Shown piece after piece: positions 56,130 to 61,736 of a stretch of DNA of 64,000 nt (its first letter is position 1; each line of letters opens with the position of its first letter). Source of the DNA: Nocardioides aurantiacus. GTDB lineage: Bacteria; Actinomycetota; Actinomycetes; Propionibacteriales; Nocardioidaceae. The position numbers and the translations under genes are program-made. Under the pieces are notes generated by a model. It searched no databases. It was not told the origin of the DNA and worked only from the letters and a program-made list of their open reading frames with translations. The stretch is taken from positions 1,178,001 to 1,242,000 of the forward strand of contig NZ_RKHO01000001.1 in assembly GCF_003752505.1 (NCBI RefSeq), read 5' to 3'.

Positions 56130-57485
56130 TCAGGCTCTTCGGGCGTTCGCCGTCAGGGGCGCGCGGGTGACAGGGACGACGGTCGAGTGGTGGCCGGTGG
56201 GCGAGGTCCACTCGTAGGTCGCACGGCTGCCGTCGCCGCGGCGCTCGTAGGTCCAGCCGCCGTGGGTCTTGGCGTGGTGGTGGCGCCGGCACAGCGGTGC
56301 GAGGTTGGGGGCGGTGGTCTGGGCGGGCGGGCCGCCGTGGGCCGGGTCGAGGTAGGGCTGGATGTGGTCGAGGTCGCAGCGTCGGGAGTCGGTGCGGCAG
56401 CCGGGGAACACGCAGTGGGCGTCACGCAGCAGCACCTGCTCGCGCAGCAGCGGTGGCGGGTCGTGGGCGTCGACGGTGCGGGTGTCGGCGAGGTCGACCA
56501 CGGCCCGCACGCTGACCCGGCCGCCGGCGAGCCGGTGGCGGGCGAGCCAGTCGGCCAGCAGCCCGGTCGAGACCGCGCCGAGGCCTTCGACGGACGCGAC
56601 GCCGGGCTGATCGGTGAGGTCTGCGGGGGTGAGGTGGACGACGAGGTCGAGCGACCCGGTGCCGCCGGGACTGAGTGCGGCGTCGGGTCGACCGGACATG
56701 AGGTCCAGAGCGTGCTGGGGGTCGGCCAGGACACCCACGGCGCGAGCGCGGCGTACGTCCAGAGGGTCGGTGTCACCCAGCTGCTCCAGGTCGGCCACGA
56801 TCCGGGTCACGCTCTGGTCCAGCAGCTGCGCGTCGGGGGTGTCCAGGGTCATCACGACCTCGGTCGTCGCGGGCGCGGCGCCGTCACGGTGCAGCCACAC
56901 GCCGCGCTTGGCCAGGGCGTCGTCCTCCTCGGCGACCGCGCGGTCGGGGTCGGCGTGCAGCCGCGCCTCGTGGGCCAGTCGGCGGGCGTCGACCAGCCCG
57001 ATCCGGTCGGGGACGGCGCAGATCAGCCGGTCGGCGTGCAGGGCTGCGTCCAGGGACAGGTCGTGGGTCTCGCGGGAGATCAGCCGCGCCTGCCACACCC
57101 GCGGTCCGGTGAGCAGGGTGGCCTTGCCGAGCAGGGTCCACAGCCGCGGCAGCCGGAACGCGAGCTCGAGGGCGTCGGCGATCAGCTGCTGGGCGTGCAG
57201 CGCCGGCACCCCCAGCGCCGCGGCCAGCTCGACCGGCGCCTCCGGTGCCACCAGCGGCGCCCCCTCACCGGCCAGCGGTGTGATGGGGGCGGGGTCGCCG
57301 ACGAGGCGGAGCTCGCCCCACCCGGCGTGGTCGACCACCCCGTCGGCATCCACCGGCGCCGGGTGCAGCAGCGCCCACTGCAGCGCCAGCCGGAGCTGTC
57401 GCAGCTGGGCCTCGTGCTCGTCGGCTCGCGCCTCCCAGGCCGCGTCGATCAGACGCGCCTTCTGGGATCGGGGTGCTGCGGTCAT
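56130..57485 (-). CDS. DUF222/HNH endonuclease family protein
   Basis: 451 residues. A large N-terminal DUF222 domain (about 10-330) is followed by an HNH nuclease motif: CVFPGCRTDSRRCDLDHI, PNLAPLCRRHHHAKTHGGW. The paired Cys/His zinc ligands and the HNH catalytic His are present. These proteins are extremely abundant in actinobacteria and are sometimes linked to group II introns, 13E12 repeats or mobile DNA; the actual function is unknown. The ATG is 6 nt after TACGAT on the minus strand and is therefore probably leaderless. Divergent from the charged repeat protein gene. Confidence 0.9.
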   Translation of the reverse strand: MTAAPRSQKARLIDAAWEARADEHEAQLRQLRLALQWALLHPAPVDADGVVDHAGWGELRLVGDPAPITPLAGEGAPLVAPEAPVELAAALGVPALHAQQLIADALELAFRLPRLWTLLGKATLLTGPRVWQARLISRETHDLSLDAALHADRLICAVPDRIGLVDARRLAHEARLHADPDRAVAEEDDALAKRGVWLHRDGAAPATTEVVMTLDTPDAQLLDQSVTRIVADLEQLGDTDPLDVRRARAVGVLADPQHALDLMSGRPDAALSPGGTGSLDLVVHLTPADLTDQPGVASVEGLGAVSTGLLADWLARHRLAGGRVSVRAVVDLADTRTVDAHDPPPLLREQVLLRDAHCVFPGCRTDSRRCDLDHIQPYLDPAHGGPPAQTTAPNLAPLCRRHHHAKTHGGWTYERRGDGSRATYEWTSPTGHHSTVVPVTRAPLTANARRA

Positions 57486-57534: not shown

Positions 57535-57584
57535 TGTGAAACCGAGGTGAGAGCCCTCTCATCGCGGGCTCACGGCCGCCTCAC
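57535..57584. promoter_or_regulatory. Operator cluster with 11-bp-spaced half-sites upstream of the repeat-protein gene
   Basis: The inverted repeat TGAGAG-CC-CTCTCA (57548-57561) lies ~80 bp before the repeat-protein start. Half-sites continue at 11-bp intervals on both sides: TGAAAC at 57537 and TGAGAG at 57548; then CTCTCA ending 57561, GCTCAC (57568-57573) and CCTCAC (57579-57584), with TCA repeated every 11 bp. Such spacing is typical for OmpR/PhoB-type response regulators. The same core recurs at 61723-61736. Binding by the neighbouring regulator is inferred. Confidence 0.65.
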
Positions 57585-57639
57585 CGCCGGTGGCCAGAGT
57601 CGTCCTCGTCAGCCAGACACCACGACGAGAGGAACCACC

Positions 57640-58236
57640 ATGAAGCTCATCCCCACCACCGTCCTGGCCCTCAGCGGCTTCACCGCCCTGGGCGTCCTGG
57701 GCCTGCAGACCGTGGACGCGACCGCCGGCGATCGCACCGAGGCGGCGGCGTACGGCAAGCGCGACAGCGAGGTCGTCGAGCTCGCCCTCGTGGACGACGA
57801 CACCGACGACGACCGCGACCCCCAGACGCGCGACGGGCAGACGCGCGACGGCCAGACCCGGGACCCGCAGACGCGCGACGTCACCAAGGACACGGTCACC
57901 CGTGACCCGCAGACCCGCGACACCACCCGCGACACCACCCGCGACACCGTGACCCGCGACCCGCAGACCCGCGACGTCACCAAGGACACGATCACCCGTG
58001 ACCCGCAGACCCGCGACACCACCCGCGACACCGTGACCCGCGACCCGCAGACCCGCGACGTCACCAAGGACACGGTCACCCGTGACCCGCAGACCCGCGA
58101 CACCACCCGCGACACCGTGACCCGCGACCCGCAGACCCGCGACGACCAGACCCGCGACGACCAGACCCGTGACGACGACACGCGCGACGACGACACCCGC
58201 GACGACGACACGCGCGACGACGACACCCGCGACTGA
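57640..58236 (+). CDS. Secreted polyampholyte repeat protein (TRD repeats)
   Basis: 198 residues with a signal peptide (residues 1-28, hydrophobic core LALSGFTALGVLGLQT). After a short acidic linker come tandem 14-residue units alternating between DPQTRDVTKDTVTR and DPQTRDTTRDTVTR, then shorter QTRD and four DDTRD units to the end. The mature chain is almost only Asp, Arg, Thr, Gln, Pro and Lys, and strictly alternates acidic and basic residues. It has no Cys or aromatic in the repeats and must be disordered. ATG 57640 follows GAGAGGAA. A Ser/Thr kinase gene follows 24 bases downstream. No homologue recognised. Confidence 0.85.
   Translation: MKLIPTTVLALSGFTALGVLGLQTVDATAGDRTEAAAYGKRDSEVVELALVDDDTDDDRDPQTRDGQTRDGQTRDPQTRDVTKDTVTRDPQTRDTTRDTTRDTVTRDPQTRDVTKDTITRDPQTRDTTRDTVTRDPQTRDVTKDTVTRDPQTRDTTRDTVTRDPQTRDDQTRDDQTRDDDTRDDDTRDDDTRDDDTRD
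57815..58236 (+). repeat. In-frame tandem repeat array
   Basis: 42-bp units (14 codons) repeated about six times, with two alternating types, ending in 12- and 15-bp units. Copies are nearly identical at DNA level (cgcgacccgcagacccgcga recurs), showing recent expansion. Not a CRISPR: there are no unique spacers and the frame stays open throughout. Confidence 0.9.
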
Positions 58237-58260
58237 GCCGCCGCAGGAGGAGGAGCAGCG

Positions 58261-59139
58261 ATGACGCACGAGGACAGCTGGGACTTCGAGGCGGGGGACC
58301 AGGTCACCCCCGAGCTGGGCGTGGTCGAACGGCTCGGTGGTGGCGCCTCGTGCGAGGCCTACCTGTGCTTCGACGAGGTCACCCACGGCCCGGTCGTGGT
58401 GAAGGTGCTGCGGCCGGACCGCGTGGGCGAGGCCCGCGCGGCCCGGTCGCTCGAGCGGGAGGCCGAGGCGCTGCGGACGGTCAACCACCCGGTGGTGGTG
58501 CGGCTGCTCCGCGACGGACGCGACGACCCCCGCCCGCACCTCGTGCTCGAGGCGGCCGACGGGCCGCGGCTGTCCTCCCTGCTGCGACGGCACGGACCGC
58601 TGCAGCCGGAGCAGTACCTCCCGCTGGGCATCGACCTGGCGTCGGCGGCGGCGTACCTGCGCCACGTCGGGCACGTCCACCTCGACGTCAAGCCCGGCAA
58701 CGTGGTCATGGGCGCGCCCGCGCGCCTGATCGACCTCTCCGCCGCCCGGCCCGTGGCCGAGGCGGCGGCGCTGCTCGACGTGGTCGGCACGGACGCCTAC
58801 CTGGCTCCCGAGCAGTGCCTGCCGGGCCAGGTGGGTGTGCCGGGGCCGGCGAGCGACGTGTGGGGGATCGGGGCGACGCTGTTCGAGGCCGCGGCGGGCT
58901 ACCGGCCCTTCGACGAGGGCGACCCTGCGGCGTCCGCGCCGGAGGCGGTGTGGCCGCAGCTCGAGCAGGTGCCGTACGACGTGCCGCGTGCCGTCCCTGC
59001 GACGGTGGCAGACGCGCTGCTCGCCTGCCTGGCGAGGCGACCCGAGGACCGGCCCACGCCGGCCGAGCTCTCCGACGCCCTGGCCCCGACGTACGCCGCC
59101 CTGCCGAAGGGACGCCTCGCGGGGTTCCGGGTCCGGTGA
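58261..59139 (+). CDS. Soluble eukaryotic-type serine/threonine protein kinase
   Basis: 292 residues, kinase domain only, no transmembrane segment. Gly loop LGGGASCEAY (~residue 25), catalytic Lys in VVVKVLRP (~46), Glu in REAEAL, catalytic loop HLDVKPGN (~141, with Asp and Asn), metal-binding Asp in IDLSAA instead of DFG, and APEQ near 181. All catalytic residues are present, so it should be active. ATG 58261 follows GGAGGAGGAG. It is co-directional with the TRD-repeat gene (24-base gap) and converges end-to-end with the response-regulator gene, their stop codons touching. Confidence 0.92.
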   Translation: MTHEDSWDFEAGDQVTPELGVVERLGGGASCEAYLCFDEVTHGPVVVKVLRPDRVGEARAARSLEREAEALRTVNHPVVVRLLRDGRDDPRPHLVLEAADGPRLSSLLRRHGPLQPEQYLPLGIDLASAAAYLRHVGHVHLDVKPGNVVMGAPARLIDLSAARPVAEAAALLDVVGTDAYLAPEQCLPGQVGVPGPASDVWGIGATLFEAAAGYRPFDEGDPAASAPEAVWPQLEQVPYDVPRAVPATVADALLACLARRPEDRPTPAELSDALAPTYAALPKGRLAGFRVR

Positions 59140-59808
59140 TCAGCCGTCGAAGCGGTAGCCCATGCCGCGCACGGTGCTGATCGCGGCGGCGCCGAACTTG
59201 CGACGCAGGTAGCCGACGTAGACGTCGACGACGTTGGACCCGGGGTCGAAGTCGTAGCCCCACACGAACGACAGCAGCTGCTCGCGGGAGAGCACCTGCC
59301 CGGGGTTGAGCAGGAAGATCTCGGCCATCTTGAACTCGCGGGCCGAGAGGTCGACGACGCGACCGCCCACGGTCGCCTGCCGGGTGCGCAGGTCGAGGGC
59401 CACGCTGCCGACGGCGAGGCGGTCCTCGCGGCCGCCGGACTGGTCGTTGGCCTGACGCAGCCGGAGCCGCACCCGCGCGAGGAGCTCGGCGAAGCGGAAC
59501 GGCTTGGCCATGTAGTCGTCGGCACCGCCCTCCAGCGCCGACACGGTGTCGGTGACGCTGTCGCGGGCGGTCAGCACGATGACCGGCAGCGCGCTGCCCT
59601 GGGCCCGCATCTGGCGCAGCACCTCGAAGCCGTCGATCCCCGGCAGGCCGATGTCGAGCACGACCAGGTCGAAGTCGCCGGTCAGGACGTAGTCGAGTCC
59701 GGTGTGGCCGTCGGAGGCCACGGTGGTGGAGAAGCCGTCGGCCGTGAGGCCCTTGGCCAGGAACGAGGAGATGCGGTGCTCGTCCTCGACGATCAGGACA
59801 CGGGCCAC
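59140..59808 (-). CDS. OmpR-family response regulator
   Basis: 222 residues. The receiver domain has acidic pocket EDE near residue 9, phospho-acceptor Asp in LVVLDIGLPGIDG (~52), Thr in VLTARDS and Lys in YMAKPF (~103). A winged-helix DNA-binding domain follows (~128-222; REFKMAEIFLLNPGQVLSREQLL, VVDVYVGYLRRKF, VRGMGYRF). It probably binds the 11-bp-spaced TGAGAG sites at both ends of the locus. The GTG at 59806-59808 overlaps the kinase 3' end by 16 bp. Last gene of a three-gene minus-strand operon. Confidence 0.95.
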   Translation of the reverse strand: MARVLIVEDEHRISSFLAKGLTADGFSTTVASDGHTGLDYVLTGDFDLVVLDIGLPGIDGFEVLRQMRAQGSALPVIVLTARDSVTDTVSALEGGADDYMAKPFRFAELLARVRLRLRQANDQSGGREDRLAVGSVALDLRTRQATVGGRVVDLSAREFKMAEIFLLNPGQVLSREQLLSFVWGYDFDPGSNVVDVYVGYLRRKFGAAAISTVRGMGYRFDG

Positions 59809-61349
59809 GAGGTGGTTCCTTCCAGGGGGAGGTCGAGGACGAAGCGGGCGCCGCCGCCCGGGGCGTCCTCGACGCGGGCGGTGCCGTGGTGGGCCTCGGT
59901 GATGGCGCGCACGATCGACAGGCCGAGACCGAAGCCCTCGTCGCCCTCGGGCACCACGGCCCGGCCGAAGCGGTCGAAGATGCGCGTGCGGTCGGCGAGG
60001 TCGACGCCGGGGCCGGTGTCGGCGACGGCCAGGAGCAGCCGGTCGCCGACGACCTCGCCGGACAGCGTCACGGCGTCGCCCGGGCCGGTGTGCTTGACCG
60101 CGTTGTCGCACAGCTGGAGCAGCGCCTGGGTGAGCCGCTGCTCGTCGGCGGGCGCCTCGGTGGTCGCGGGCGGCAGCGGGCCGAGACGCCAGTCGCGCCC
60201 GGCGAGGCCCGTGGCCTTGCGGTGCACCTGCTCGAGCAGCGCCGCCACGGGGGTGGGACGCAGCCGGGCGAAGTCGGGGCGGTCGGACTTGGCGAGCAGG
60301 ATCAGCTCGTCGACCAGCCGCGACATCCGGTCGAGCTCGTCGAGCAGCAGCTCGGAGGTCTGCGCGACGTCGTCGGCGTCGTGCGGGTCGACGACCTCGA
60401 GGTGACCGCGCAGCACCGTGAGCGGGGTGCGCAGCTCGTGGCCGGCGTCGTCGAGGAACTGGCGCTGCGAGCCGAACCCGTGCTCGAGCCGCGCCAGCAT
60501 GTCGTTGAAGGTGCTGGTGAGCCGGGCGATGTCGTCGTCGCCGACCACGGGCAGCCGCCGGGAGAGGTCCGTGGCGCCGATCTCCTCCGCCGACGCGTGC
60601 AGCGAGCGGAGCGGTCGGAGCAGCCGGCCGGCCTGCAACCAGGCGGCGACGGCGATGAGGACCAGTAGCAGCACCGAGACGGCGGCGTAGGTGCGCATCG
60701 TGCTGCGGAGCTCGTCCTCCTCGTCGCTGAGGAAGTTCACGATCACCAGGGCGTCGGGGTCCTCCCCGGCGTCGCGTCCCGAGGCGGTGCTGACCGGCTG
60801 CACGGTCACGGAGTAGTCGCCGATGCCGTCCTGCTCGAGGTCGGCGGTGCCGCCGCGGGGGAGCAGGTCCGCGACCGCGGGGGCCAGCGCCGGGTCGGCG
60901 ACCAGGCGGGCGCCGTACGCGTGGCGGGTGCGCTCCTGGGGCCGGCCCGCCCACCAGCCGACGAGCAGCTCGTCGTCGTCGGGCACGTTGCGCACCAGGT
61001 AGGTGCTGAGCAGGGCCTGGGAGGAGGTGAACGCGCGGCCGGTCACCGGGTCGACGCCCTGCTGCTGGAGCCGGACGAGCTCCGCGATCTCCTGGGCGGT
61101 GTTCTCGGTCACGATCCGCTGGACCCGCTGCGACTCCAGCGTGTGGACGAGCAGGCCCGCGGCGCCCAGGGCGAAGGCGCTCACCACGGCCACCGACAGC
61201 GCGATCCGGGTGCGGACCGACGTACGCCGCAGCAGGGTGCGCAGGCTGCGGCGGGGAGGGGGCTCAGTCGTCGTCCCCGTCGTCGTCGTCACCGTCGTCC
61301 TCGTCGTCCCCGTCGTCGTCTGCTCCACCTGCTCCGTCGTCGTCATCAT
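59793..61349 (-). CDS. Two-component sensor histidine kinase
   Basis: 518 residues. A Thr-rich N terminus (1-33) precedes TM1 (about 50-70), an extracytoplasmic domain (~71-220), TM2 (~221-243) and HAMP. HisKA follows with His in DDAGHELRTPLTVLRG (~307), then the ATPase domain with LCDNAVKHTG (N), DTGPGV (G1) and GFGLGLSIV (G2). Everything needed for autophosphorylation is present. ATG 61349 makes an 86-bp overlap with the upstream polyacidic gene; a GTG near 61290 with GAGGA upstream is an alternative start. It probably senses an envelope signal and phosphorylates the adjacent regulator. Confidence 0.92.
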   Translation of the reverse strand: MMTTTEQVEQTTTGTTRTTVTTTTGTTTEPPPRRSLRTLLRRTSVRTRIALSVAVVSAFALGAAGLLVHTLESQRVQRIVTENTAQEIAELVRLQQQGVDPVTGRAFTSSQALLSTYLVRNVPDDDELLVGWWAGRPQERTRHAYGARLVADPALAPAVADLLPRGGTADLEQDGIGDYSVTVQPVSTASGRDAGEDPDALVIVNFLSDEEDELRSTMRTYAAVSVLLLVLIAVAAWLQAGRLLRPLRSLHASAEEIGATDLSRRLPVVGDDDIARLTSTFNDMLARLEHGFGSQRQFLDDAGHELRTPLTVLRGHLEVVDPHDADDVAQTSELLLDELDRMSRLVDELILLAKSDRPDFARLRPTPVAALLEQVHRKATGLAGRDWRLGPLPPATTEAPADEQRLTQALLQLCDNAVKHTGPGDAVTLSGEVVGDRLLLAVADTGPGVDLADRTRIFDRFGRAVVPEGDEGFGLGLSIVRAITEAHHGTARVEDAPGGGARFVLDLPLEGTTSWPVS

Positions 61350-61677
61350 CCACGGGCGCCGGAGCGGGGGTGACCACCCGGACGTCGTCGCGCCGCTCGG
61401 CGCGCTCGCGACGGCGCTCCTGCGCGAGCCGCTCGCGCCGCGCCTGGCGCTGCTCGGCGCGCTGGCGCCGCTCCGCCCGGGCGGCCTGGTCGCGCACGTC
61501 GTCCCCGGACTCGGTCGTCGGCCCGCCCGGCGGCTCCGTCGCGGAGTCGTCGACGACGATGTCCTGGCGCGGCGCGGGCGGGTCGACCGAGGAGCCGATC
61601 CCGCCGGCGGCGTACGCCCCCAGCGGGAGCAGCACCACCAGCACGGCGGCGAGGAGGACCTGGACCGGGCGGCTCAT
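61264..61677 (-). CDS. Secreted/anchored protein with Arg-Glu and polyacidic tail
   Basis: 137 residues. An N-terminal signal or anchor helix (about 5-25) precedes a Pro/Asp linker, an Arg/Glu/Ala helical stretch (about 65-100; ARAERRQRAEQRQARRERLA) and a C-terminal tail of almost pure Asp and Gly. It starts the minus-strand operon with the histidine kinase and response regulator, directly downstream of the TGAGAG-N2-CTCTCA operator. Its last 86 bases are read in another frame as the kinase's Thr-rich N terminus. Composition parallels the TRD-repeat protein at the other end. Function unknown; cation binding is possible. Confidence 0.8.
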   Translation of the reverse strand: MSRPVQVLLAAVLVVLLPLGAYAAGGIGSSVDPPAPRQDIVVDDSATEPPGGPTTESGDDVRDQAARAERRQRAEQRQARRERLAQERRRERAERRDDVRVVTPAPAPVDDDDDGAGGADDDGDDEDDGDDDDGDDD

Positions 61678-61710
61678 GCGGGGAGCCTGCCGGGCGCAGG
61701 TGGCAGCCGC

Positions 61711-61736
61711 GTGAGAGTCCGATGAGAGAGCTCTCA
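61711..61736. promoter_or_regulatory. Operator with 11-bp-spaced half-sites upstream of the two-component operon
   Basis: TGAGAG at 61712-61717 is repeated 11 bp later at 61723-61728. It then forms the inverted repeat TGAGAG-AG-CTCTCA (61723-61736). It lies 35 bp upstream of the polyacidic gene start (minus strand) and ~100 bp upstream of the divergent AMP ligase. It has the same core and spacing as the element at 57535-57584. Confidence 0.65.

Follow-up and report, generated by a model that had tools for sequence, protein, structure and literature searches.

What would place a two-component system between genes for two exported proteins of strongly biased composition, with a soluble Ser/Thr kinase gene alongside? 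The question is raised by five genes in a 64,000-base stretch of the Nocardioides aurantiacus genome (bases 1178001-1242000 of a single contig of 4,060,008 bases; hereafter, the window), which run in the order TRD-repeat protein, Ser/Thr kinase, and then, converging on these, response regulator, histidine kinase, and poly-Asp protein. An earlier note, made from the letters of the window, had proposed this arrangement, as well as a single operator core with 11-bp-spaced half-sites before both outer genes; gene coordinates and Pfam assignments confirmed the former, and the latter was found in the sequence. The five-gene locus is real and conserved. In it, a sensor pair of soil actinobacteria appears to control two odd exported proteins, one of them ending in an Asp run and the other built on Ser/Thr repeats; the dedicated kinase gene that adjoins the repeat-protein gene suggests that this surface protein may undergo chemical modification ahead of its export.

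The TRD-repeat protein gene (57640-58236, + strand) encodes a putative signal peptide, a KR(D/E) plus acidic segment, and then 26 TRD triplets, where shuffling the protein's own residues gives 2.0 on average. It is followed by the gene for the soluble, eukaryotic-type Ser/Thr kinase (58261-59139, +). On the opposite strand lie the genes for (i) the OmpR-family response regulator (59140-59808, -), with Response_reg and Trans_reg_C domains in Pfam; (ii) the histidine kinase (59793-61349, -), with a predicted PDC/Cache-like sensor followed by HAMP, HisKA, and HATPase domains; and (iii) the acidic protein (61264-61677, -), which consists of a hydrophobic N-terminus, an R/E/P linker, an (E/R)VVxPxP-like motif, and an Asp-rich tail that is present in 20/20 aligned acidic proteins. 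The acidic protein is probably exported or membrane-anchored, the signal peptides of both outer proteins being assigned by eye. Pfam and NCBIfam searches gave no match for the TRD protein, and Pfam gave none for the acidic protein. Both had been described as made almost entirely of Asp with Arg or Thr, which overstates the case for the TRD protein (70% Asp, Thr, and Arg beyond residue 32) and for the acidic protein (25% Asp, 15% Arg, 11.5% Ala, and 10.6% Gly beyond residue 24). The acidic and histidine kinase genes share an 86-nt overlap (61264-61349), and we rejected a run of Thr at the N-terminus of the histidine kinase as a domain, as it represents the GAC (poly-Asp) repeats of this overlap read in a shifted frame. 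The same reading of the overlap is seen in some relatives (for example, loci L086, L087, and L098).

The operator before the TRD gene (57548..57584, +) consists of the core TGAGAG-N2-CTCTCA and CTCAC half-sites at +21 and +32, followed by a -10-like hexamer, CAGAGT (57595..57600, +), 47 bp from the operator start. The operator of the acidic protein-histidine kinase-response regulator operon (61700..61736, -) has the same geometry, with a degenerate last half-site, and again a -10-like hexamer, CAGGCT (61684..61689, -), lies 47 bp from its start. Read gene-forward, the two cores begin at 57548 and 61736, and both promoters share a layout with TGAGAG at 0, CTCTCA at +8, CTCA at +21, a half-site at +32, and an xAxxxT hexamer at +47. 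Rather than preceding hundreds of unrelated genes, the exact core TGAGAGNNCTCTCA is confined to 5 sites within the 4,060,008-base genome, against 0 sites for the reversed pattern; in 5/5 cases, TGAG is also found 11 bp before the TGAGAG of the core, on one strand. With up to 3 mismatches, the source genome yielded 14 operator rows versus 1 for the control.

To compare promoters across genomes, we collected those in which an exact gene-forward operator is followed, at a distance of 300 to 1300 bp, by a called kinase or histidine kinase gene, counting each sequence once and including the window. This selection fixes positions 0, +8, and +21, whereas the +32 half-site and the +47 hexamer are free. 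The half-site CTCAC at +32 is 94-100% conserved per base in 36 TRD promoters, and a -10-like A....T stands at +47 in 36/36 TRD promoters and 32/35 acidic-operon promoters; the next best hexamer offset was found in 2 and 7 promoters, respectively. In each of 40 loci where an exact operator stands ahead of a repeat gene, it has this same orientation; 2 of them (one genome, counted twice) carry the reverse as well. Where an OmpR/PhoB-type regulator activates directly, its operator typically covers the -35 region and keeps a constant spacing to the -10 element. Here, half-sites repeated roughly every 11 bp show such a constant spacing to the -10-like hexamer, and the pair has the domains of this type (a receiver plus Trans_reg_C in the regulator and HisKA/HATPase in the kinase, by Pfam). 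Because the hexamer stands at a fixed 47 bp from the operator start, the geometry suggests direct, self-activating control of both promoters by the regulator of the pair.

The operator was found in 4/24 genomes of the genus, in 169/341 of the family, and in 43/296 of a sample of the class, with 27 of these 43 lying outside the family. We therefore rejected the notion of a one-family curiosity, since TRD-like genes are also found near the kinase there: 4 of the 296 class-sample genomes carry the kinase outside the family, with a TRD-like gene nearby in 4/4, although in one locus (L206) this gene sits at the other end of the two-component system. Within the family, the histidine kinase is present in 105/197 genomes (20/26 genera) and the Ser/Thr kinase in 90/197 (18/26 genera). 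Among the 197 genomes common to the operator scan and the histidine kinase search, 79 have both operator and histidine kinase, 3 the operator only, 26 the histidine kinase only, and 89 neither (Fisher 5.7e-28); for the two kinases, the corresponding numbers are 88 with both, 2 with the Ser/Thr kinase only, 17 with the histidine kinase only, and 90 with neither (Fisher 1.6e-35). These Fisher values overstate the evidence, because genomes are non-independent lineages, and the gene arrangement is stronger evidence than the co-occurrence statistics. With the best histidine kinase match taken from each of the 88 genomes positive for both kinases, the two genes converge within 6 kb in 84; in the remaining 4, they lie on different contigs (three genomes) or 201 kb apart (one genome, G042). 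Co-occurrence, convergence, and promoter geometry thus bear out the claim that the two-component system, the operator, and both outer genes are conserved as a unit.

The kinase gene is also tightly linked to the gene of the repeat protein. Twenty repeat proteins align loosely over the signal peptide, KR(D/E), and acidic segment, with 3 invariant columns, and 11 members picked for a C-terminal motif around SRGDKTRDWTRDGGDRTRD share 36 invariant columns; the C-terminus in the family is often VSRDRDxSRGDKTRDWTRDGGDxTRDxxxNxTNDRSRNDTR. Divergence and an expanded repeat set apart the copies in the window and in genome G009. When the genomes of 84,980 species were scanned for the C-terminal motif, 91 pattern matches emerged, 51 of which were confirmed as loci; these fall under Nocardioides, Mumia, Nocardioidaceae, Propionibacteriales, or Actinomycetes, and the count covers members with the motif, so that those lacking it, such as the one in the window, stand outside. 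A kinase gene follows the TRD gene directly and on the same strand in 51/51 loci, at estimated gaps of -131 to +122 bp; this count rests on a six-frame hidden Markov model search, as the codon-based gene caller alone missed the kinase in L166, L173, and L176. On the question of whether TRD proteins occur apart from the rest of the locus, the histidine kinase was found in 44 and the response regulator in 45 of these 51 loci. In 6 of the 7 loci lacking the histidine kinase, the contig ends within ~2 kb of the kinase, the exception being L154, which has the kinase and the TRD gene yet no two-component system within its 12 kb; the histidine kinase is therefore present in 44/45 loci whose contig continues past this point. 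In 43/44 loci with a histidine kinase, the strand opposite the Ser/Thr kinase carries both two-component genes at no more than 6 kb from it, whereas in L158, where the gene calls are fragmentary, they lie in an open frame overlapping the Ser/Thr kinase.

In a further set of 65 kinase loci, which includes some genomes twice and holds 57 distinct repeat proteins, a repeat-type open reading frame lies directly upstream of the kinase in 64, at a median gap of 24 bp. Counts of [ST]x[DN] exceed the residue-shuffle mean in 57/57 distinct proteins (mean 10.6 vs 6.9). Beyond residue 30, most of these proteins are near neutral (median net charge -5.5) and contain a median of 23 Ser/Thr, so that phosphorylation would shift their charge greatly. 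The enzyme itself has the marks of a eukaryotic-type protein kinase: the window kinase matches PF00069 (E 4.8e-33; 115.1 bits vs a gathering score of 31.7) and PF07714 as its only Pfam families, and it keeps the catalytic residues K48, E67, H140-L141-D142, K144, N147, and D158-L159-S160, which are invariant in 16/16 aligned relatives. The solved structures nearest to it by sequence are those of PknB.

In family f21, an APH-family enzyme (PF01636, its sole Pfam match) takes a place comparable to that of the kinase. It was found in 16/22 genomes searched, and 4/4 aligned APH enzymes, one of them from family f45, keep the HGD and D-I/V-D motifs. An exported protein with Ser/Thr-Ala-Pro-Asn repeats is encoded just downstream in 15/16 loci. 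The exported Ser/Thr proteins of L208 and L216 were missed by the gene caller and found by frame translation. The operator lies within 3.6 kb of the APH enzyme in 8/16 loci, three of the remaining enzymes lying within 502 bases of a contig end, and the two-component system and poly-Asp protein are recognizable in L208, L210, L221, and L222, all outside the family of the window. Our main argument is drawn from this replacement: because one kinase fold takes the place of another while the exported Ser/Thr-repeat neighbor stays, the enzyme and the repeat protein would work together. The swap suggests that the repeat protein is the target of the enzyme, perhaps while still inside the cell.

The mechanism that we propose begins with the histidine kinase and response regulator as a likely envelope-sensing pair. 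The phosphorylated regulator would bind the 11-bp-spaced half-sites over the -35 region and activate both promoters; the soluble kinase would act in the cytoplasm, phosphorylating the Ser/Thr repeats of its partner prior to Sec export or in the course of it; and phosphorylation would turn a near-neutral polyampholyte (or the largely uncharged repeat of the APH lineage) into a polyanion outside the cell. Together with the anchored poly-Asp protein, the modified repeat protein might then form an acidic, cation- or polycation-binding layer regulated by the sensor. Taken as a whole, this mechanism is a tentative proposal, to which we give a little less than an even chance. Its wider form is more doubtful, though still plausible: a recurrent actinobacterial module, controlled by a two-component system whose output includes an anchored poly-Asp protein, in which a dedicated cytosolic Pkinase or APH enzyme would phosphorylate a Ser/Thr-repeat protein ahead of its export by Sec, as a pre-secretory analogue of Fam20C or CotH. 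The sequences establish the common operator and promoter geometry, the tight linkage, the intact kinase residues, and the signal-peptide-like N-termini; the earlier note's suggestion that the kinase modifies the Thr-rich repeats before export thus gains from the 51/51 linkage and the replacement by another kinase fold, while the modification itself is a predicted step.

Several observations weigh against this proposal. Linkage is no proof of substrate, and phosphorylation, binding, and export are all predicted. In G042, with its best histidine kinase and kinase matches so far apart, the two-component locus (L101) has no called kinase or TRD gene; moreover, 17/105 histidine kinase-positive genomes have no kinase match at the cut-off used, 26/105 have no exact operator match, and 1 of the 16 APH loci (L237) gave no repeat protein by the filter used. 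Some operators adjoin genes with no evident envelope role, such as a sigma-factor gene (L117) and arsR (L006 and L108). APH enzymes act mostly on small molecules. Furthermore, we know of no precedent in bacteria for the modification of a Sec substrate by a cytosolic kinase, and none was found among the matches listed in a search of openly licensed full-text literature.

The kinase might instead form a signaling branch, phosphorylating the response regulator or the histidine kinase (or a sigma-factor or division protein), with the repeat protein serving as an extracellular signal or feedback element. That 88 of the 90 genomes with the kinase also have the histidine kinase, its gene convergent with that of the kinase in 84 of them, is in keeping with such a role, and phosphorylation of OmpR-type regulators by Ser/Thr kinases is known from actinobacteria. 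We nevertheless consider it unlikely, as the kinase is linked to the repeat protein (51/51) at least as tightly as to a nearby two-component system (44/45), L154 keeps the kinase and TRD gene without such a system in its 12 kb, and the APH loci retain the repeat protein beside the enzyme.

Another reading, improbable in our view, takes the repeat protein as an O-glycosylated or unmodified wall spacer and has the kinase-fold enzyme phosphorylate a small molecule (a sugar, a lipid head group, or an antibiotic) for the same envelope response. The usual preference of APH-family enzymes for small molecules would suit it, as would the S/T-P-A segments, which are typical targets of actinobacterial O-mannosylation. 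The main lineage, however, has a PF00069 protein kinase, with PknB nearest among solved structures, and a small-molecule substrate leaves unexplained the adjacency to an exported Ser/Thr-repeat gene in 51/51 and 15/16 loci.

The sensor spans approximately residues 64-207 of the histidine kinase, between two presumed membrane helices, and is predicted as a PDC/Cache-type domain with a mean pLDDT of 85. Among the structure matches listed, WalK ranked top by Foldseek, with CzcS among the first rows, and TlpB and WalK ranked top in a second comparison; CusS, PhoQ, CpxA, and other receptors ranked lower. Pfam searches with the sensor domain alone gave only chance matches, and the matches to the full-length histidine kinase in a structure search were filled by its catalytic core. 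The predicted fold is thus compatible with WalK, chemoreceptors, CusS, CzcS, or PhoQ, with none singled out, and because several receptor classes match, the signal cannot be read from it. The regulator, for its part, fell below the cut-off of every named NCBIfam regulator among the 25 of 102 matches listed (cztR_silR_copR, 204.5 vs 279.2 bits; CseB, 189.1 vs 350 bits).

The earlier note had called the regulon self-contained, a description that we rejected: three more exact operators lie elsewhere in the source genome, (i) before a PepSY lipoprotein gene, (ii) before arsR and an ars operon, and (iii) before the gene of an ABC exporter, which is accompanied by that of a second Ser/Thr kinase. 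The regulon hence extends past the locus, although, counted by exact sites, it is small. The source-genome lipoprotein has two PepSY stretches and a D-rich linker; double-PepSY lipoproteins whose linker is acidic or S/T/P-rich are encoded behind an exact operator in three genomes (L007 4169-4789, -; L110; L113). A ZnuB-like permease and a Fur-like gene, both identified by eye, are nearby in G000 and G009; in the source genome, their distance from the PepSY site is 1 to 3 kb. Genes resembling arsR and arsenate-resistance genes, likewise by eye, follow the operator in two genomes (L006 4244-4730 and L108 3065-3971), and in the source genome a phosphotransferase-like gene lies on the opposite side of the operator. 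At L005 2036-4987 (genome 3021735-3024686), the operator is followed by the ABC exporter and then the second Ser/Thr kinase, an order also seen in L106, L109, and L118; G001 and G228 are among the genomes with the exporter-second kinase pair behind operators, and a 55-residue open reading frame with an Arg run separates operator and exporter in G000 and G009.

Elsewhere, the operator precedes (i) a conserved exported protein with LIGSxDIKxNSxxSxDIK-type repeats in four genomes of the family (L111, L112, L119, and L122) and (ii) paired, related glycosyltransferase-like genes (by eye) in four genomes, one of them outside the family (L107, L115, L125, and L214), three of these beginning near xALYSHDxxGLGHxRRN. 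G401, from another family, has an operator, an Asp-rich open reading frame, and a histidine kinase in the neighborhood of a gene similar to that of the second kinase (L218 2474-3382). The gene adjoining the locus in the window (56130-57485, -) encodes, by eye, a C-terminal HNH-like stretch (RCDLDHIQPY...CRRHHHAKTHGGW) and has no Pfam match.

The sensor and the operator sites bear on the divalent-cation sensing or buffering system that had been suggested in the earlier note. The Asp-rich tail found in 20/20 aligned acidic proteins would fit it, as would a sensor fold common to PhoQ, CzcS, and CusS among others, the permease and Fur-like genes near the PepSY site, and the ars operon behind another site (genes assigned by eye). 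Yet WalK and chemoreceptors of the same fold class score better, and among the five exact sites only the ars one precedes genes resembling those for metal transport or resistance, which leaves this reading a distinctly poor prospect. A chance neighborhood, with an ordinary two-component system beside unrelated low-complexity genes, is scarcely credible: low-complexity GC-rich open reading frames are common in such genomes, but the shared N-terminal region and C-terminal motif, the fixed promoter geometry, and the convergent neighbors in 84/88 genomes already contradict it.

Returning to the proposed pre-export phosphorylation, the locus offers a simple test case for a rarely asked question, namely whether dedicated kinases phosphorylate bacterial surface proteins before export: the genes of the presumed substrate and enzyme are adjacent in 51/51 loci, two kinase folds occupy one place, and a sharply defined operator links them to a sensor. 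It also provides a first functional context for exported proteins without a Pfam match that recur in Nocardioidaceae. Searches of openly licensed full texts on the motif, on poly-Asp or Asp-rich proteins with regulators, and on two-component and kinase loci of Nocardioides or Nocardioidaceae gave no description of this locus among the matches listed, so that this is apparently an undescribed regulon with an unusual output module.

The OmpR/PhoB-type envelope regulons (WalKR, PhoPQ, CseBC, MprAB, and CutRS) likewise have an OmpR-type regulator, a HAMP-containing kinase with an extracytoplasmic sensor, and repeated half-sites before their own operon. To our knowledge, the operon includes a poly-Asp protein in none of them, nor does the output of any comprise a kinase and an exported Ser/Thr-repeat protein. 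MprA of C. glutamicum binds TKTTAAGAAM (PMC12113857), and the targets of CutR are htrA3, htrB, and a VKOR gene (PMC10433416), so that they differ from the locus regulator in motif or target set. The PknB-type kinases are the nearest solved relatives of the locus kinase, which has no PASTA part, comprises only 292 residues, and scores 117.6 bits against a cut-off of 450 in the PASTA-kinase model. Fam20C is a eukaryotic Golgi kinase whose targets, secreted phosphoproteins, are modified along the secretory pathway, and animals have secreted acidic phosphoproteins; the likeness is a functional analogy only. CotH belongs to a different kinase family, and its substrates are spore-coat rather than Sec-exported proteins. 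As the kinase families differ (the locus kinase matches PF00069 and PF07714 only, and the APH enzymes PF01636 only), the locus falls outside the CotH module. In its manner of working, the CotH-CotB-CotG module is nevertheless the nearest analogue that we found: a dedicated Ser/Thr kinase gene is clustered with genes for Ser-rich repeat surface proteins, and phosphorylation patterns the outer layer (PMC7821199). Here, too, a kinase gene lies beside a gene for a repeat surface protein; whereas the sections of PMC7821199 at hand do not mention operator-defined two-component control, the present locus joins kinase and repeat protein to an operator-linked two-component system.

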